A DNA stretch of 64,000 bases from Coriobacteriia bacterium (lineage in GTDB: Bacteria > Actinomycetota > Coriobacteriia > Anaerosomatales > Anaerosomataceae): assembly GCA_030652115.1 (NCBI GenBank), contig JAUSBK010000008.1:1-64000 (forward strand), read 5' to 3'. Below are positions 12,381-23,240 of the stretch, piece by piece. Under the pieces are notes generated by a model. The model made no database searches, was not told the DNA's origin, and saw only the letters and a program-made list of their open reading frames with translations. The position numbers and the translations under genes were made by a program. How positions within the stretch are numbered: position 1 is the first letter of the stretch; every line of letters starts with the position of its first letter.

Positions 12381-12409
12381 TTGGCCGCTGGCGGCGCGAG
12401 TGATACTAT
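12381..12409 (+). promoter_or_regulatory. Promoter of the ccm operon (TTGGCC - 17 - TACTAT)
   Basis: TTGGCC at 12381-12386 and TACTAT at 12404-12409 are 17 bases apart. Transcription would start near 12416, at the first base of GTTCAGGCA, leaving a leader of ~120 bases before ccmE. Confidence 0.5.
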
Positions 12410-12415
12410 CGGTGC

Positions 12416-12535
12416 GTTCAGGCAAGGGTGTTGCAGGCAAAGGTGCGTTCGCGGCCGTTTCAGGCCCCGCACGCTTGGTGTCGACGACTGCCGTCGTGCG
12501 TTCGCACGCGGTGTGAGCGAGGAGTGATCCGTTCA
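12416..12535 (+). promoter_or_regulatory. Leader of the ccm operon with near-perfect direct repeat and hairpins
   Basis: The leader opens with GTTCAGGCA, six bases after the -10 box, exactly as in the hemA leader. It contains a direct repeat: CAGGCAAGGGTG (12419-12430) and CAGGCAAAGGTG (12434-12445), 11 of 12 bases alike, 15-base period. Further on are short hairpins, for example CGACG/CGTCG and CGTGC/GCACG just before the ribosome site GAGGAG. The repeats could bind a repressor or form part of an RNA switch; which is not decided by the sequence. Confidence 0.4.
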
Positions 12536-13222
12536 GTGAACAAGCGGGCAAAGCAGCGTCTCATTGGGGTGACGATCCTCATTCTCGTGGCGGTCGCCGC
12601 GATCATCTGGTTCAGCGGCTTCATGAATGCCACGGCGACGCCGGTCTCGATCGCCGACGTACTGTCGGACGAGACTCTGGTGGGCACGCAGGTCGAGGTC
12701 ACCGGCCAGGTCGTGGCGGGCTCCTGGATCTCGGGCACCCAGCCGTTCGTCTTCGAGATCGAGGACGGCGAGGACGAGGAATCCGGTCGTGTCCGCGTGG
12801 TCTGGAACGATGTCGTGCCCGGCTCCTTCGGCGATGGCACGACCGCCACGGTCACCGGCACGATCGCCGCAGACGGCTCGGTCGAGGCCAAGTACCTCGT
12901 CACGAAATGTCCGTCGAAGTACGAGTCCGCGACCGGCGCCCTCACCGTGAACGACGTGCTCAACAGGGCCGATGAGTTCGCTGGCGCTGCTACGCTCAAG
13001 GTGACGGGATTCGTGGTCAACGGCTCGATCAAGGATGCCGGTGCGCCGGTCCGTTTCCAGATCGCCGATGACGCCACCGGCGGCACGGCGCTCGACGTCT
13101 CCTTCGGCGGCGGGCTGCCGGACGATCTCGCCGATGGCGTTAAGGTCGTCATCACCGGTTCGCTCGAGGAAGACGGTGTGTTCCAGTGTGCCGAGGTGGC
13201 CCTCGACGAGGCCGCTCAGTAG
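12536..13222 (+). CDS. ccmE: Haem chaperone CcmE, cysteine type, with a second OB-fold domain
   Basis: 228 residues from GTG 12536 (site GAGGAG, spacing ~11). An N-terminal membrane anchor (about residues 10-28) is followed by an OB-fold domain with the CcmE-like run GTQVEVTGQV. It ends in KCPSKYES, placing Cys125-x3-Tyr129 where E. coli CcmE has the haem-binding HxxxY. Cys-type CcmE is known from Desulfovibrio and others. A second OB-like unit follows (residues ~133-228: LTVNDVLN, LKVTGFVV, VVITGSLEEDG) and stops before any C/HxxxY, so it probably cannot bind haem covalently. The protein carries haem from CcmABCD to CcmF on the outer face of the membrane. It is the first gene of the ccm operon and lies 35 bases before ccmF. 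Confidence 0.85.
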   Translation: MNKRAKQRLIGVTILILVAVAAIIWFSGFMNATATPVSIADVLSDETLVGTQVEVTGQVVAGSWISGTQPFVFEIEDGEDEESGRVRVVWNDVVPGSFGDGTTATVTGTIAADGSVEAKYLVTKCPSKYESATGALTVNDVLNRADEFAGAATLKVTGFVVNGSIKDAGAPVRFQIADDATGGTALDVSFGGGLPDDLADGVKVVITGSLEEDGVFQCAEVALDEAAQ

Positions 13223-13257: not shown

Positions 13258-15333
13258 ATGGACCTGGGTACCCTCGGCAATGTGCTGCTCGCGCTTGCGA
13301 GCGTGTGCGCAGTCGCATCGATGGTGTCGTTTGCCGCGGCAGGCAAGGACGGGGTGAACGCTCGCAGGGTGGGTTACCTGCTCACCTTCGGCGCTACCGG
13401 ATTCATCACTCTCGCGACCGTCCTGCTGGCCACCGCGTTCCTGAGCGAGAACTGGTCGCTGCAGTACGTGGTGTTCAACCACCCGACCATCACCGGCCCG
13501 TGGGCGTGGGTCTACCGCCTCTCGGGTGTATGGGCCGGGCGTGAGGGCTCGCTGCTCTTCTGGGAGTGGGTGCTCTCGATCTACGCCGCGTTCATCGCCG
13601 CCAAGTTCCTCAAGAGCGACAACCGCCTCGGCTCTACCGGCCTTGCGATCCTGAACTTCGTGCAGCTCTTCTTCCTGGCCGCGCTGTTCATCGACACGAA
13701 CAACCCGTTCGTGCTCACGCCGGCCGGATACGTGGATCCGGTCACCGGGGCGCTGCTGGTGAGCGCCGCGATGAACCCGCTCCTGCAGACGTGGGCGATG
13801 TTGTTGCACCCGCCGACGCTGTTCATCGGGTACGCGGGTCTTGCGGTGCCGTTCGCGTTCGGCCTCGCCGCGCTCATCACTGGTGACACCTCCAAGCAGT
13901 GGGTCGTGCTCTCGGACCGGATCACCGTCTTCTCCTGGCTGCTGCTCGGCATCGGCATCGGCCTCGGCTCGGTGTGGGCGTATTACGAGCTGGCGTTCGG
14001 CGGGTACTGGGCGTGGGACCCGGTGGAGAACGCGTCACTGCTCCCGTGGCTCACGGGCGTGGGACTCATACACTCGATGACCGTCTACCGCCGTCGCGAC
14101 GGGTACAAGGCCTGGGCGTTCATGATGGCTGCAGTCACCTTCGTATTCGTGCTGCTCGGTACGTTCATCACGCGCTCGGGCATCGTTCAGTCGGTGCATG
14201 CGTTCCAGGAGGACCCGCTCTCGTTCTGGCTGTTCCTCATCATGATGGTGGGTTCGCTGCTCGCCATGGCTGTCGGCGTGATTCTGCGCAAGGACCGTCT
14301 CACGAGCGACAGCGACGGATTTGAGCGCATCTTCTCTAAAGAGGGTTCGTACTACTTCAACAACGTGATCATGCTCATCTCGGCCATCCTGGTGGCCTAT
14401 CTCACCTTGGCCCCGGCCTTCCCATCGTGGATGCCGCTCGGCGGGCAGTCGGTCAAGATTCCCGCGTACGACGCGCTCGCGCGTCCGATTGGCATCTTCT
14501 ACATTCTCGTGATGACCGTCTGCCCGATCCTCTCGTGGGGCGGTGCCGGGTGGAAGAAGTTCTGGGAGAAGGCGAAGATGCCGGTCATCATCGGCTCGGT
14601 TCTCGCCGCCGCATTCCTGGCGATGTACGTGTTCTTCATGCTGCCGTTCTTCACGCCTAGCGCGGACGCGCCCACGTGGTGGCATCACTTCATCGCGATC
14701 GCGGGTGTCATCGTGGCCGGCTATGCCATCGGGCTCCCGATCTGGCTGTTCACCGACGGGGCTCGCAAGCGGGCTGCCGCGACCGAGACCTCGTTCGCCT
14801 CGGCGCTCGGGTGGATCGTCACCAAGGCCCGCACCCAGTCGGGCGGCTATCTGACGCACCTCGGCATGGGTGTGATCCTGCTCGGTCTCGTAGGTTCGAC
14901 GATGTTCGTGACCACGCACAACGCCACGCTGGCGCCGCAGGCGGGTGCGAGCTACGAGGCGAACGGCTACACGTTCAGCTACGTCGGGCTTGAGGAGACG
15001 CAGGAGAACGTGCCCGAGGGCGGTACGAAGGGTGATACCGTCTACACGCTGCAGACCGACGTCACCAAAGACGGCAAGAAGATCGACACACTCAGCCCGC
15101 AGATGCGATTCCCGCAGCAGCTTGCGCAGAACAACCAGAGCACCCAGCACGTGTCCATCATGCACGAGCCGTTCAAGGACGTCTTCCTGTCGTTCTCGGG
15201 CACCGATGCCGCCAACAACGCTGTGCTCACCATCAAGTTCTTCCCGATGCAGACGTGGGTGTGGGTCGGCTTCCTGATCACCATCATCGGCAGCGCGATC
15301 GCGGCGTGGCCCAAGAAGCAGCGGGCGGCGTAG
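13258..15333 (+). CDS. ccmF: Cytochrome c haem lyase subunit CcmF
   Basis: 691 residues starting at ATG 13258, about the usual CcmF length (~650). It is a polytopic membrane protein of the haem-handling family. The WWD-type motif appears as GGYWAWDPVENASLLPWL (near 14001-14054), with the flanking LHPPTLFIGYAG and TFITRSG blocks typical of CcmF. A large extracytoplasmic domain follows near the C-terminus (ASYEANGYTF onward), and a last membrane segment ends in a basic tail. CcmF takes haem from CcmE and attaches it to CXXCH cysteines. In classical systems it works with CcmH and CcmG, neither of which is encoded nearby. Confidence 0.95.
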   Translation: MDLGTLGNVLLALASVCAVASMVSFAAAGKDGVNARRVGYLLTFGATGFITLATVLLATAFLSENWSLQYVVFNHPTITGPWAWVYRLSGVWAGREGSLLFWEWVLSIYAAFIAAKFLKSDNRLGSTGLAILNFVQLFFLAALFIDTNNPFVLTPAGYVDPVTGALLVSAAMNPLLQTWAMLLHPPTLFIGYAGLAVPFAFGLAALITGDTSKQWVVLSDRITVFSWLLLGIGIGLGSVWAYYELAFGGYWAWDPVENASLLPWLTGVGLIHSMTVYRRRDGYKAWAFMMAAVTFVFVLLGTFITRSGIVQSVHAFQEDPLSFWLFLIMMVGSLLAMAVGVILRKDRLTSDSDGFERIFSKEGSYYFNNVIMLISAILVAYLTLAPAFPSWMPLGGQSVKIPAYDALARPIGIFYILVMTVCPILSWGGAGWKKFWEKAKMPVIIGSVLAAAFLAMYVFFMLPFFTPSADAPTWWHHFIAIAGVIVAGYAIGLPIWLFTDGARKRAAATETSFASALGWIVTKARTQSGGYLTHLGMGVILLGLVGSTMFVTTHNATLAPQAGASYEANGYTFSYVGLEETQENVPEGGTKGDTVYTLQTDVTKDGKKIDTLSPQMRFPQQLAQNNQSTQHVSIMHEPFKDVFLSFSGTDAANNAVLTIKFFPMQTWVWVGFLITIIGSAIAAWPKKQRAA

Positions 15334-15340
15334 GTCCGCG

Positions 15341-16072
15341 ATGGACGACGGGCCGAACACAGGCAACGCGCTGGAGGTCCGGGAGCTTACCCGGGCCTTC
15401 GGCGTGCGCAAGGCGCTCGACGGCGTCAGCTTCGATCTGCCCGAGCAAGCGTTCCTCTCGGTGTTCGGACCGAACGGCGCGGGGAAGACCACGCTCGTCA
15501 AGGTGCTCACCACGCTCCTCAACCCCACCAGCGGCTCCGCTAGGGTGCTCGGCCTCGACGTGGTAGCCGACGCGGTCGCGATGCGGAGCCGCATCGGCCT
15601 CATCAGCCACAACCCGCTGCTGTATCCGGACCTCACCGCCGAGGAGAACCTACTGTTCTTTTCGGAGATGTACGGCATCGACAAGCCGCACGTTCGCGTA
15701 GATGAACTCCTCGAGGCGGTCGAGCTCGATCACCGCAGACTCGATCTCACGCGCACCTTCTCGCGCGGCATGCTGCAGCGACTGTCGATCGCCCGCGCTC
15801 TCCTGCACCGGCCCGAGGTGATCTTCCTCGACGAGCCGTACTCGGGGCTCGACCCGCATGCGATGGACATCCTCGACGGACTCATCGCGCAGATCCGCGA
15901 CAAGCACACGTTCGTGATGATCAGTCACGATCTCGACAAGGGGCTGGAGCTCTGTAGTCACGCGCTCATCCTCGCGAAGGGTCGTGTCGTGCTCTTCGAG
16001 CCTCGCGAGGCGCTCGACGATGCTGTCTTCCGCGATACCTACCGCTCGACCGTGGGCATGGGGGTGGCGTAG
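15341..16072 (+). CDS. ccmA: CcmA, ATPase of the haem-release ABC complex
   Basis: 243 residues, ATG 15341, seven bases after ccmF. Walker A is FGPNGAGKTT, the signature is FSRGMLQRLS (the SRGMxQR variant common in CcmA) and Walker B is EVIFLDEPYSGLD. The H-loop His is in VMISHD. CcmA pairs with CcmB and uses ATP to release holo-CcmE from CcmCD. The gene is followed directly, without spacing, by ccmB. Its sequence alone would also fit other small ABC ATPases; the operon decides the assignment. Confidence 0.93.
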   Translation: MDDGPNTGNALEVRELTRAFGVRKALDGVSFDLPEQAFLSVFGPNGAGKTTLVKVLTTLLNPTSGSARVLGLDVVADAVAMRSRIGLISHNPLLYPDLTAEENLLFFSEMYGIDKPHVRVDELLEAVELDHRRLDLTRTFSRGMLQRLSIARALLHRPEVIFLDEPYSGLDPHAMDILDGLIAQIRDKHTFVMISHDLDKGLELCSHALILAKGRVVLFEPREALDDAVFRDTYRSTVGMGVA

Positions 16073-16777
16073 GTGGCGAACCTCTCCGGGCGTCAGTTCC
16101 GCGCCATGCTCAGGAAAGACCTTGTCATGGAGTTCCGCACCAAAGAGATGCTCACATCGATGGGCCTCTACTCGCTGCTCACGATGGTCGTGTACTTCGT
16201 TGCGCTGTCGCAGACCGGTGCTGGCTTTGACGTGCGCGACATCGCGGCAGGGTTGCTGTGGCTCGCGTTCATCTTCACCTCGATGCTGGGACTCAACCGA
16301 TCCTTGGTACACGAGAAGGACCAGGGCTGTCTGGATGCGCTGTTGCTGTCGCCGGTGGACCGCCCGGTGATCTTCTTCGCGAAGGTTGTGGGCAATCTGG
16401 CATTCCTGCTGGTGGTCGAGGCGCTCACGATCCCGGTGTTCGCCTTCTTGTTCCTGCAGGGCGGGGGCTTCGAAGTCGGTACGCTTGTGCTGATCCCGCT
16501 CGTGTTAGTCGCGGGCTCGGTAGGCATTGCGGGGGTGGGCACGCTGCTCGCTACGATGTCGGTGAACACGTCGGGGAAGGACTTCATCCTCCCGGTGCTG
16601 TTCATCCCGCTGGCGTACCCGCTGCTGCTCGGTGCGGTCACCGCCACGGCTGCCGCCATCACCGGCACGCCCGAGGCGCTCGGCACGTTCTGGGCAGGGA
16701 TGGCGTGGGTGTTCGGATACGATGTGATCATGCTGCTGGCCTCGTACGGTCTGTACGAGTTCATCGTCGGCGCGTAG
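16073..16777 (+). CDS. ccmB: CcmB, membrane subunit of the haem-release ABC complex
   Basis: 234 residues from GTG 16073, immediately after the ccmA stop. About six membrane segments are visible. Family features include the amphipathic N-terminus RKDLVMEFRTKEM, the GLNRSLVHEKDQG block and DALLLSPV. CcmB is the permease-like partner of CcmA. Length matches E. coli CcmB (~220). Confidence 0.92.
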   Translation: MANLSGRQFRAMLRKDLVMEFRTKEMLTSMGLYSLLTMVVYFVALSQTGAGFDVRDIAAGLLWLAFIFTSMLGLNRSLVHEKDQGCLDALLLSPVDRPVIFFAKVVGNLAFLLVVEALTIPVFAFLFLQGGGFEVGTLVLIPLVLVAGSVGIAGVGTLLATMSVNTSGKDFILPVLFIPLAYPLLLGAVTATAAAITGTPEALGTFWAGMAWVFGYDVIMLLASYGLYEFIVGA

Positions 16778-16815
16778 GCGCCGGCGGCGGCTGGTTTAGG
16801 AGGCAGGAGGCAACT

Positions 16816-17757
16816 GTGAAGTCCGCGAGCACCAGGGCATTCATCGCACTCGCGCTGGGAGGCGTGCTCACACTGGGTGCGTTCCTCGGCACGTTCTTCT
16901 GGGCCGGCGTGCCCGACTTCGGCTACGTCCGCACGGCGAACAGGACCGACTCGGTCCGCTACCAGGGCCCCTTTGAGGAGGAGATCGACGAGGCCCGGTA
17001 TCTGCAGAACTACGCGGACTATCAGGTCACGGTCGAAGCTGGCGGTGAGACGTTCGAGGGCCGGATCGTCGAGGTCACCGATGACGAGATCACCCTTGCG
17101 ACTGACACGGGTGACGCCAGCGCGCCCAAAGACGTCATCAAGGTGGACGAGTTCACCTCGGCCACGGTCTACGGCTCGACGTACGGGCGTCCCGACTGGG
17201 GCCAGAAGATCTTCTACTTCCACGTGCCGGTCGCCGAGATCTCATTCATCGTCTTCGCCGTGGCCGCGTTCTACGGCTTGCGCTTCATCATGACGCGCAA
17301 GCGCGAGTACGACGTAAAGGCGCGCATCTCGATGGAGGTCACGGTGGCCTTCATCACGATGACGATGGCCACGGGTATCCTGTGGACGAAGGCGGCGTGG
17401 GGCGTGTGGTGGGACTGGGAGCCGAGGCTCACCACGTACTTCATCCTCACGCTGCTTGCAATCGCGTACTTCGTGCTGCGCAATGCCGTCGAGGACGAGG
17501 AGCGCCGGGCGTTGTACGGGGCCGCGTTCAGCATCCTGGCGTTCATAGACGCGCCGATCTCCTTCTTCATCACCCGGCTCATCCCGTCGAACCATCCGGT
17601 CATCGAGCGGGGTGGTCTCGAGCCGCCGATGCTCATCAGCTTCATCGTGGCCCAGATCGGCATGCTGCTGATCGGATACGCGATCTACCAGGTCAGGATG
17701 GGCGAGATGACGCTGCAGGACCGTATCGAACGCGCCAAGTCACAGTTGGAAAGGTAG
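16816..17757 (+). CDS. ccmC: CcmC, haem delivery protein, with an inserted extracytoplasmic domain
   Basis: 313 residues from GTG 16816, placed five bases after a perfect AGGAGG. The WWD motif is present as WGVWWDWEPRLTT (around residue 198). The haem-ligand histidines are His136 (FHVPVAE) and His260 (NHPVIE), 124 residues apart, the spacing of His60/His184 in E. coli CcmC. Compared with the ~245-residue family norm there is an extra stretch of roughly 90-100 residues after the first membrane segment (about 30-125). It is rich in Asp/Glu and beta-type sequence (EVTDDEITLATDTGD) and should lie outside the membrane. CcmC loads haem onto CcmE. A ccmD-like gene follows after six bases. Confidence 0.9.
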   Translation: MKSASTRAFIALALGGVLTLGAFLGTFFWAGVPDFGYVRTANRTDSVRYQGPFEEEIDEARYLQNYADYQVTVEAGGETFEGRIVEVTDDEITLATDTGDASAPKDVIKVDEFTSATVYGSTYGRPDWGQKIFYFHVPVAEISFIVFAVAAFYGLRFIMTRKREYDVKARISMEVTVAFITMTMATGILWTKAAWGVWWDWEPRLTTYFILTLLAIAYFVLRNAVEDEERRALYGAAFSILAFIDAPISFFITRLIPSNHPVIERGGLEPPMLISFIVAQIGMLLIGYAIYQVRMGEMTLQDRIERAKSQLER

Positions 17758-17976: not shown

Positions 17977-18822
17977 GTGACCGAGGTCGCATTCGTCGCA
18001 TTCTGGCTTGCGATGGCCCTCTATGCGGGGGCCACGGTGCTCTACGCGTATCAGGTGGCCACGAAGCGCGCCGCTCTCTCGGCGTACGCGACACTCGCCA
18101 CCGGTGCGGGCTTCGTGCTGCACACGGCGTCCATCGGCCTGCAGTCGACCGCAACCGACGGCACCGAGCTCACCGGCGCCAATGTCCTCGTGCTGATGGC
18201 GTGGGCGCTCGTGCTCGTCTACTTCATCCTCGAGCACCTCATGAAGGTGAAGACGTACGGCGCGCTGCTCGTGCCGGCGGCGCTCGTGGTGCTCCTCGTC
18301 GGGCAGATCATGGGTGCAAGCCGCGGCGTGCTGGCCGACCTGTCGGCCGACCAGGCGGCGCTCCTTGATAGCTGGCGGGTCGGCATCCATGTCGCGCTCA
18401 TCAGCTTCGCCAACGCGGGCTTTGCAGTGAGCGCAGTCGGTTCGCTGCTCTACCTCATGCTCGAGCGGCAGCTCAAGCACCACAAGAGCAGCAAGCTGTT
18501 CAATCGGCTTCCGTCGCTGGCGCAGACCGACTCGGTTGCACGGCACTCGGTGTTCTGGGCGTTTCCCGTGTATACCGCGGGCATGCTGCTCGGTGCGCTT
18601 CGGGCGATCGAGACCGACGTTTCACTGTGGTGGGCCGATGCCCGGGTCGTGCTCGCGGGCCTGGTCTGGCTGGCCTTCGCGCTTTACGAGTTCATGCGCT
18701 GGCGCAAGGGCTGGGCCGGCCGCTCGGCTGCCTATCTCTCGCTCGTCGGATTTGCCCTGGTGATCGTGCTCGCGATCGTTGCGCGCACCATCCCGGCCGG
18801 CTTCCACGTATTCGGGCTCTAG
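17977..18822 (+). CDS. HemX/CcsA-family cytochrome c assembly membrane protein
   Basis: 281 residues from GTG 17977 with about eight membrane segments. It resembles HemX/YpjD/CcsA (PF01578): the central block HVALISFANAGFAVSAVGS, then LLYLMLERQLK, LPSLAQTD and a tail ending PAGFHVFG. A full WWDWEP haem motif is not present; the corresponding loop reads SLWWADARVV. In Bacillus and others hemX lies next to hemA and affects glutamyl-tRNA reductase levels. Here hemA follows after one gene, so HemX is the better reading. A System II CcsA role is less likely because no ccsB/resB is seen. Confidence 0.72.
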   Translation: MTEVAFVAFWLAMALYAGATVLYAYQVATKRAALSAYATLATGAGFVLHTASIGLQSTATDGTELTGANVLVLMAWALVLVYFILEHLMKVKTYGALLVPAALVVLLVGQIMGASRGVLADLSADQAALLDSWRVGIHVALISFANAGFAVSAVGSLLYLMLERQLKHHKSSKLFNRLPSLAQTDSVARHSVFWAFPVYTAGMLLGALRAIETDVSLWWADARVVLAGLVWLAFALYEFMRWRKGWAGRSAAYLSLVGFALVIVLAIVARTIPAGFHVFGL

Positions 18823-19666: not shown

Positions 19667-19711
19667 GCTGCCGCTCCTCGATTTTCGGTCCTCGGTTCGC
19701 GCAGAGGATGC

Positions 19712-19897
19712 TACGATTAACTCGTTCAGGCACGAACGGGTCGCGCACACTCGGCGCGGCCACAACACCGCCCCCGCCGGGCCTGCTTGCCTGAACAACA
19801 ACGCACTGCACCGGCGGGGGCGACCCAGCCCACTCACGTCCGCACTGCGGATGTCTGCGCCCGCAAGACGCCCCTGCATGGAAGCGAGCCGATCCTG
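19712..19897 (+). promoter_or_regulatory. hemA promoter and structured leader with interleaved inverted repeats
   Basis: A -10 box TACGAT (19712-19717) is followed six bases later by GTTCAGGCA (19724-19732), the probable transcript start. That arm is perfectly complementary to TGCCTGAAC at 19788-19796. A second perfect 12-base pair, CGCCCCCGCCGG (19769-19780) with CCGGCGGGGGCG (19811-19822), starts inside the first stem loop and ends outside it, so the order is A1-B1-A2-B2. GGGTCGC (19738-19744) can also pair with GCGACCC (19820-19826), competing with B2. A small hairpin follows (CGTCCGC/GCGGATG). This is pseudoknot or alternative-fold topology, as in riboswitches. No known riboswitch consensus was recognised. 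Confidence 0.5.
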
Positions 19898-21268
19898 ATG
19901 CACCTCGTCCTTGTCGGACTGAGCCATAAGACCGCGCCGGTCGCTATCCGCGAGAAGCTGACGTTCTCCGCAGCCGTTCAGGAGGACGCGCTCAACCGTC
20001 TGGCGCGCCTCGACGGCATCCGCGAGGCCGTCATCGTCTCTACCTGCAACCGCACCGAGGTGTACGCGGTCGCCTCATCGGAAGATGGGGGCGTCGAGTC
20101 GGTCATCGCGTTTCTCGCGGACTACCACGATCTCGACCGGCACGAGCTGTCGCGCTACCTGTACGTGATCACGGGCGACGCGGTCGTGCGTCACCTGTTC
20201 AGGGTGGTCGCCTCGCTCGACTCGATGGTGGTGGGAGAGGCCCAGATCCTCGGCCAGGTGAAGGAAGCGTACGAGCACGGCTTCAATGCCGATGCCACCA
20301 GCCGTGTCTTCAACAAGCTCTTCCGCCAGAGTTTCGAGGTGGGCAAGCGGGTGCGTACGGAGACCGCGATCGGCGAAGCGGCCGTTTCGATCAGCTACGC
20401 GGCTGTGGAGCTGGCGAAGAAGGTCTTCGACACGCTCGACGGGCGCACGATCTTGATCCTCGGCGCCGGCAAGATGAGCGAACTCACCGCCAAGCATCTC
20501 GTGAGCAACGGCGTCGCGCGTGTGCTCGTGGTGAACCGCACGTTCGAACGGGCGCAGGAGATGGCAGCGCGCTTCTCGGGCACCGCGGTGCCGTACGAGA
20601 GCCTCTACGAGGCGGTCCGTGAGTCGGACATCGTGATCTCCTCCACCGCGGCAACCGAGTACGTCGTCACCAAGCGCGACCTCGCGCCGGTGTCGCGCAC
20701 GCGCACCCGGCCCCTCTTCCTCATCGACATCGCCGTACCCCGGGACATCGATCCGGCCGTGAACGACCTCGGCGGCGTGTTCCTGTACGACATCGACGAT
20801 CTCAATGGTGTGGTCTCCTCAAACCTCGAGGAGCGCATGAGCGAAGCCCATCGGGCCGAGGGGATCATCGACGAGGAGATCACGGCCTTCTACGCCTGGG
20901 TCGAGTCCATGGAGGTGGTCCCCACGGTCGCGGCGATCCGCGCTAAGGCCGAGGTCATCCGCGAGATGGAACTCGAGAAGGCGCTGAAGCGCCTCGATCT
21001 CGGCGAGAAGGACCGCAAGACCGTGGAGGCGCTGACCTGCGCCATCGTGAACAAGATGCTGCACGGTCCCACGGCGCGTCTCAAGAAGGCGGCGGCGGGC
21101 AAGGACGGCTACGAGTACATGGAGATGGCCCGGGCGCTCTACGGTCTGGAGGACTCCGAGGAGAAGTCCGGCCCCGGTGCGTTCCGCAACCTCCTGAACC
21201 TGCGGGCGCGTGAGATCGTGGACAAGCAGAAGGAGACAGGGGACAACATTGGCGACTGTGGAGCGTAA
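19898..21268 (+). CDS. hemA: Glutamyl-tRNA reductase
   Basis: 456 residues. ATG 19898 gives the family's standard beginning MHLVLVGLSHKTAPV. The nucleophilic cysteine is Cys50 in STCNRTEVY, with DSMVVGEAQILGQVK in the substrate domain and the NADPH loop LGAGKMSE. A C-terminal helical dimerisation domain completes the usual length (~420-460). The enzyme reduces glutamyl-tRNA to glutamate-1-semialdehyde, the first committed step of C5-route tetrapyrrole synthesis. An intergenic leader of ~170 bases precedes it. Its end overlaps the TTG start of hemC by 20 bases. Confidence 0.96.
   Translation: MHLVLVGLSHKTAPVAIREKLTFSAAVQEDALNRLARLDGIREAVIVSTCNRTEVYAVASSEDGGVESVIAFLADYHDLDRHELSRYLYVITGDAVVRHLFRVVASLDSMVVGEAQILGQVKEAYEHGFNADATSRVFNKLFRQSFEVGKRVRTETAIGEAAVSISYAAVELAKKVFDTLDGRTILILGAGKMSELTAKHLVSNGVARVLVVNRTFERAQEMAARFSGTAVPYESLYEAVRESDIVISSTAATEYVVTKRDLAPVSRTRTRPLFLIDIAVPRDIDPAVNDLGGVFLYDIDDLNGVVSSNLEERMSEAHRAEGIIDEEITAFYAWVESMEVVPTVAAIRAKAEVIREMELEKALKRLDLGEKDRKTVEALTCAIVNKMLHGPTARLKKAAAGKDGYEYMEMARALYGLEDSEEKSGPGAFRNLLNLRAREIVDKQKETGDNIGDCGA

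Positions 21269-23164: not shown

Positions 23165-23240
<76 letters not shown>

Follow-up and report, generated by a model that had tools for sequence, protein, structure and literature searches.

Why should the leader of a haem synthesis operon carry interleaved inverted repeats, and what, besides each other, might these repeats pair with? The question is raised by the hemA leader of a Coriobacteriia bacterium, which lies in a stretch of 64,000 nucleotides (nt) of DNA (contig JAUSBK010000008.1, positions 1–64,000, forward strand; hereafter the window). A first-pass annotation had read this leader as a possible pseudoknot or two-state RNA of the ligand-sensing kind. Comparison with related genomes shows a conserved RNA with three predicted helices, A, B and C, that cross one another, and a loop that also matches the 5′ end of a second operon, the one for cytochrome c maturation (ccm). 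We consider it moderately probable, from sequence comparison, that this RNA is a conserved riboregulator coupling haem synthesis to cytochrome c maturation, in which the hemA hairpin would pair with the 5′ ends of both mRNAs.

Fold, covariation and distribution of the hemA leader

The elements of the hemA leader in the window are as follows.

19709–19717, + strand: extended −10 element TGCTACGAT of the hemA transcript, conserved in homologous leaders; predicted start G19724
19724–19732, + strand: A1, GTTCAGGCA, 5′ strand of helix A, with which the hemA transcript is predicted to begin (repeat; covariation with A2 across lineages)
19769–19780, + strand: B1, 5′ strand of helix B (repeat; compensatory changes)
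19781–19787, + strand: L2/D2, GCCTGCT, which in relatives lengthens A2 toward the ccm leader, where it pairs with GTTCAGGCAAGCAGGC (up to 16 base pairs, bp)
19788–19796, + strand: A2, the loop strand, predicted to pair with A1 in cis and, when joined by 19786–19787, to form 11 bp in the window with the start of the ccm leader
19800–19807, + strand: C2, AACGCACT, predicted to pair with C1 of the ccm leader at 12442–12449 (8 bp, −10.2 kcal/mol); its cis partner is lost in the window
19811–19822, + strand: B2, 3′ strand of helix B (repeat; covariation)
19836–19854, + strand: P4 hairpin, ACGTCCGCA C TGCGGATGT, of variable sequence, in the window's family (repeat; relatives' leaders)
19898–21268, + strand: hemA, glutamyl-tRNA reductase, first gene of hemA-hemC-hemD-hemB (Pfam GlutR_N, Shikimate_DH and GlutR_dimer)

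A repeat search recovers two inverted repeats at 100% identity, the 9 nt repeat I3 (19724–19732, GTTCAGGCA, with 19788–19796, TGCCTGAAC) and the 12 nt repeat I1 (19769–19780, CGCCCCCGCCGG, with 19811–19822), and they interleave in the order A1-B1-A2-B2, just as the first-pass annotation had described; its assignment of the downstream gene as hemA is borne out by the three Pfam domains listed above. A third perfect repeat of 7 nt, I12 (GGGTCGC/GCGACCC, 19738–19744 and 19820–19826), had been proposed to compete with B2; this pairing is available in the window, but as a conserved two-state switch it falls away, relatives having no GGGTCGC at that position. The leader stretch folds with a z-score of −4.6, none of 200 shuffled sequences folding as well, and the fold tested in this way does not include helix A because helix A crosses helix B.

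The leader is widely kept. Of 61 genomes searched 59 have hemA, and a covariance model built from the leaders of 30 that were read matches 65 of the 69 genomes of the window's order (Anaerosomatales-type Coriobacteriia), once each and upstream of hemA. Divergent copies occur in f17, f20 and f21, three further lineages of the class, and a second and a third model place the element in 17 of 36 genomes of another actinobacterial class, most of the compared sequences being from metagenome-assembled genomes. Model matches L107, L108 and L109, in coding or unrelated places, were discarded. A DNA pattern scan of 84,980 species gave no credible copy outside the two classes, the loop matches seen beyond them (ANME-2, Amoebophilaceae, Bosea) being chance. 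Rfam 15 at its gathering cut-off finds only a tRNA in the window, leaving the hemA leader without a family, while permissive thresholds give unrelated sub-threshold matches as the best at this leader, the T-box model does not match it and no model matches at 18 related loci. The first-pass description of a regulatory-type pseudoknotted RNA outside the known families is supported.

The annotation had also called this topology rare by chance and had named covariation of both stems as the check. Helix B is paired in 98.5% of cells over 84 distinct sequences, with double changes at 11 of its 12 pairs (equalled by none of 500 shuffles), and in one f21 genome (L106) the stem is wholly replaced. Helix A is near-invariant inside the order, where it shows G-U changes only, and between lineages three of its pair positions change type on both sides, as seen in the variants GTCCAGGC/GCCTGGAC (L139) and GTTTAGGCAAGC/GCTTGCCTAAAC and GTTTAGACAAGC/GCTTGTCTAAAC (both f46); matched partners of helix A pair better than swapped ones with a z of 13.6 (0 of 2000). 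Pairing bases conserved over two classes, with compensatory changes, show that helices A and B are not chance.

The annotation had missed helix C, as it had the partner ccm leader beginning at 12416. In relatives this helix is GGTGCGT/ACGCACC, with one strand between A1 and B1 and the other between A2 and B2, so that helices A, B and C cross pairwise. Its matched partners again exceed swapped ones (z of 8.0, or 5.7 on 35 distinct C2 sequences; 0 of 2000), and three pairs show compensatory changes from G-C to A-U. Conserved secondary structure with compensatory changes, the mark of a structured cis-regulatory RNA, is therefore found for this leader. In the window helix C has decayed in cis, with a best match of 4 bp, and a strong local hairpin is present in its place. 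Such a hairpin in the A1-B1 linker was considered as a general feature and rejected: strong as the window's own is, C1:C2 fits the linker better in most relatives.

Among 74 homologous leaders with A1, 69 have a TAnnnT hexamer ending 5–8 nt ahead of A1, preceded by the extended TG in 65. From this conserved extended −10 spacing the hemA message is predicted to begin exactly with A1, transcription starting at the first base of helix A, 19724. The leader structure had been said to depend on a start no further downstream than 19732, and the predicted start lies ahead of that position.

The element occupies the 5′ untranslated region (UTR) ahead of functionally related genes, at the head of hemA or ccm-hem operons. 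It precedes hemA-hemC-hemD-hemB in the order, hemA in f87, and a ccm-hemX-sirC-hemA-hemC operon in f46 and f98 of the second class (gene names by eye from translations; sirC was not seen in f98). There are two exceptions to this position: in f21 the hairpin is downstream of the ccm genes, at the 3′ end of the operon, and hemA was not found; in f74 the element stands between moaC and a moaB-hemX-sirC-hemA operon, moaB being first behind it. Inspection for an expression platform shows a U-run behind B2 in f87, f93 and f74 (TTTTTT in the last) and none in the window. The hairpin and T-run are seen between moaC and moaB in L140 and L142, and ahead of moaB-hemX-sirC-hemA in L211 (group L140, L142, L143). 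Two of the three f21 genomes (L098 and L099, the third being L106) have a terminator-like hairpin directly behind the element, possibly yielding a small RNA from the 3′ UTR.

Three further observations concern the region behind B2. The P4 hairpin (19836–19854), between B2 and the hemA start, shows apparent compensatory differences among relatives of the window's family. Many relatives' leaders (e.g. L028, L030, L102) contain a Shine-Dalgarno-like GAGGG or GGGGG in B2 with NTG-YCC about 7 nt further on, and the resulting reading frames are very short; L102 has the hemA start codon itself at the NTG site after B2, and the window's subclade is without this arrangement. A leader peptide behind B2, which start-like codons frequent by eye might suggest, was rejected, as peptide and length are unconserved and it is absent in the window's subclade. 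Further downstream, a tRNA-Ala (cgc) gene lies at 23165–23240, between hemD and hemB.

Complementarity between the hemA loop and the ccm leader

In f20, f21 and f74 the loop CTT(G/A)CCTGAACA is kept with A1 missing nearby, and something else must therefore need the loop. A search for the loop's complement in one genome (G006) returned an exact 15 nt match 8 kilobases (kb) from hemA, at the predicted +1 of the ccm operon; a second match in the same genome, which resembled a further hairpin, proved to be the ccm leader on the opposite strand. The window likewise holds an exact copy of GTTCAGGCA at 12416, 7.3 kb upstream of the hemA leader and at the predicted ccm +1, within the following features.

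12401–12409, + strand: extended −10 element TGATACTAT of the ccm operon, with the same spacing to GTTCAGGC as at hemA
12416–12426, + strand: A1 copy GTTCAGGCAAG, with which the ccm mRNA is predicted to begin; complementary to 19786–19796
12442–12449, + strand: C1 copy GGTGCGTT in the ccm leader, complementary to 19800–19807
12536–13222, + strand: ccmE, first gene behind the ccm leader (Pfam CcmE)
13258–15333: ccmF (Pfam)
15341–16072: ccmA-like ATP-binding cassette ATPase (Pfam)
16073–16777: ccmB (Pfam)
inside 16258–17757: ccmC (Pfam)
17977–18822: cytochrome c assembly protein (Pfam)

The ccm leader reads, in order, TGATACTAT, 6 nt, G12416 and GTTCAGGCAAG..GCAGG..GGTGCGTT, followed by ccmE, and its segment GGTGCGTT would pair with AACGCACT over 8 bp, replacing what the cis copy has lost. 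Within this leader, GTTCA (12416–12420) can pair with TGAAC at the ccmE start (12537–12541, GTGAACAAG) in predicted folds of several leaders, over 5 bp only.

Of the 69 genomes of the order, 48 have a pattern of extended −10, 6 nt and GTTCAGGC, and many of these have it twice on the same strand, 7–8 kb apart, at ccm and at hemA; the reversed pattern, used as a control, occurs in none of the 69. We read 34 ccm leaders; the collecting pattern demands GTTCAGGC, so the first eight bases are fixed. Their 5′ segments pair with the hemA loop over a mean of 14.4 bp, against 10.7 bp for the cis strand, and the ccm pairing is the longer in 31 of the 34 genomes. Pairing of the C1-like segment with C2 is better within a genome than between swapped genomes (0 of 2000), and is well above that of shuffled leaders (18.8 against 12.2). 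Hairpin B is accordingly predicted to expose a loop, D2-A2-C2, for which these comparisons show complementarity to the 5′-terminal ~30 nt (A1-D1-C1) of both the hemA and the ccm transcripts.

Two lineages without A1 at the hairpin carry it at the ccm start, in one of them with a matching change. Two f21 genomes in which no hemA was found carry GTTCAGGCAA at the ccm start and the hairpin at the 3′ end of the same operon. In f20 the matching change spans ~7 kb: G064 and G083 carry GTTCAGGTA at the ccm start against TACCTGAAC in the hairpin. For G087 and G085 the T forms a U-G pair, and a further matching C pair, GCGTAC/GTACGC, is seen in G085. Loss is matched at the two sites: G040 retains hemA and has lost the hairpin, and its ccm leader is likewise without GTTCAGG.

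A third promoter with GTTCAGGCA at its predicted start was seen in one genus (L349, L350, L351 and others of the same genus) and in one more genome. The gene behind it resembles adenosylhomocysteinase (VQHDVKDLSLAAAGKARIEWAD), and only the A1 part is present, which may be chance or a further target.

A riboregulator of two operons and its alternatives

In the riboregulator that we favour, the 5′ end of hemA would pair with the loop in cis, giving a pseudoknot in which helices A, B and C all cross one another. The ccm partner would be the leader of a separate operon or, where hemA has no promoter of its own, the distant 5′ end of the mRNA that also carries hemA. The hemA and ccm 5′ ends would compete for a single loop, and the ccm 5′ end, forming the longer duplex, could displace the cis strand, so that the amount of ccm mRNA would report haem demand; information might flow from ccm expression to hemA or in the reverse direction. 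Occupancy of the loop would then decide how hairpin B acts on hemA expression, with either sign, by termination in lineages with a U-run after B2 and, in the others and in the window, perhaps through mRNA stability or the access of ribosomes.

Several points weigh against this reading. All covariation tests carry phylogenetic dependence, and relatedness inflates permutation tests. The ccm leaders were sampled by pattern, so that the unbiased evidence consists of the positions after the first eight, the C segment, the six f20 and f21 genomes found without the promoter pattern, and the co-loss. Within the order, pairing of the ccm A segment is not above that of swapped partners, there being no covariation to detect because A2 is near-invariant. 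One f87 genome (G609) has a full hemA element and no A1 in its ccmE leader, and cis helix C is lost in the window itself. The duplex between the hemA loop and the ccm 5′ end may form in trans or as a long-range contact in cis, and the identity of the two promoter-proximal sites could in principle reflect a DNA operator.

The operator alternative, quite improbable in our judgement, takes GTTCAGGCAAG..GGTGCG at the +1 of both operons, with the inverted copy in the leader, as sites for a common repressor. The same +1 sequence at two functionally linked operons would fit it, as would identical changes at both, which are also expected where sites follow their protein; yet helix B covaries massively and lacks operator-like conservation, and the frequent G-U pairs in A and C fit an RNA of this strand. 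Moreover, the inverted copy reads C then A, ~3 nt apart, while the promoters read A then C with a longer spacer, so they are not the same composite site. That the repeats have no function, being kept through close relationship or overlapping constraints, is scarcely credible: general caution about repeats shared by related sequences is all that speaks for it, and it is in the main already refuted by the partner-swap and helix B covariation tests, to which two-class conservation with compensatory changes and independent co-loss add.

A ligand-sensing RNA deserves more weight, although we think it unlikely. Helices A, B and C would here form an aptamer for haem or another compound of the tetrapyrrole pathway, complete in cis at hemA, with the ccm strand as a split half or decayed copy. 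The pseudoknot foreseen by the first-pass annotation, the near-invariant loop and the element's strict link to operons for haem synthesis and cytochrome c maturation over two classes are all consistent with a riboswitch, and the U-run behind hairpin B in some lineages offers a ready terminator platform. The near-invariant bases are, however, mostly those that pair with 5′ ends, and several lineages have the partner strand at ccm instead of in cis, unlike an ordinary cis aptamer; given the ccm partner leader, a regulator acting by RNA-RNA pairing is no less likely than the ligand sensor first proposed. In a doubtful variant the 5′ ends of two operons share a split pseudoknot, the hemA hairpin being completed by its own or the ccm 5′ end and the three-helix fold sensing haem or a precursor. 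Slightly more doubtful still is a signal-free role in which A1 sequesters the 5′ end, or coaxial A and B form an RNase III site, and so set the stability of the hemA and ccm mRNAs. Nearly all leaders have A1 at their predicted +1, and the hemA-less genomes, with the hairpin at the 3′ end of the ccm operon and A1 at its 5′ end, resemble a 5′-3′ closure; but a generic stabiliser needs neither a loop sequence kept across classes, nor helix C, nor confinement to about two operons per genome.

Relation to known RNA regulators

If true, and with a ligand or without one, conserved pairing between a single leader loop and the +1 ends of two operons would balance haem supply with cytochrome c use in a new way. 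The hairpin spans two actinobacterial classes, and the pairing is found also in organisms where no hemA was found. H-type pseudoknotted riboswitches (such as preQ1-I, SAM-II and fluoride) are compact leader pseudoknots in which a hairpin loop pairs outside its hairpin. The hemA element differs from them in that helix C crosses both other helices, the pairing strand is the predicted transcript 5′ end and no Rfam model matches.

No natural haem riboswitch is known, a gap remarked upon previously (PMC9971707), and one would look for such a riboswitch ahead of hemA and of operons that use haem, which is where the hemA element lies. Our literature search found no report of a haem riboswitch or of a combination of hemA, ccm and small RNA. 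With a conserved pseudoknot in a hemA leader, the haem riboswitch question becomes directly testable, and a haem-responsive version, if true, would fill this gap (PMC9971707) with a sensor common to two messages.

SreA and SreB, together with icaR, appear to us the nearest precedents for the proposed logic. In Listeria, SreA and SreB are products of S-adenosylmethionine riboswitches that act in trans on prfA mRNA (PMC8079631); there too the structured leader of one operon pairs with the 5′ UTR of another mRNA, linking metabolism to another system. Conserved, covarying complementarity to another mRNA's 5′ UTR, as in SreA, is found for the hemA loop, with the phylogenetic and sampling caveats given above. 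Unlike SreA and SreB, the hemA loop can pair in addition with the 5′ end of its own transcript, and its partner site falls at the target's predicted +1; the two operons, hemA and ccm, serve a single pathway, and the element matches no riboswitch model in Rfam. In Staphylococcus aureus, the icaR mRNA pairs its 5′ and 3′ UTRs (PMC3868564), an arrangement that the hemA-less lineage f21 resembles; in contrast to icaR, the downstream partner here is a conserved hairpin loop of a three-helix pseudoknot, and its target is the +1 region rather than the Shine-Dalgarno sequence.
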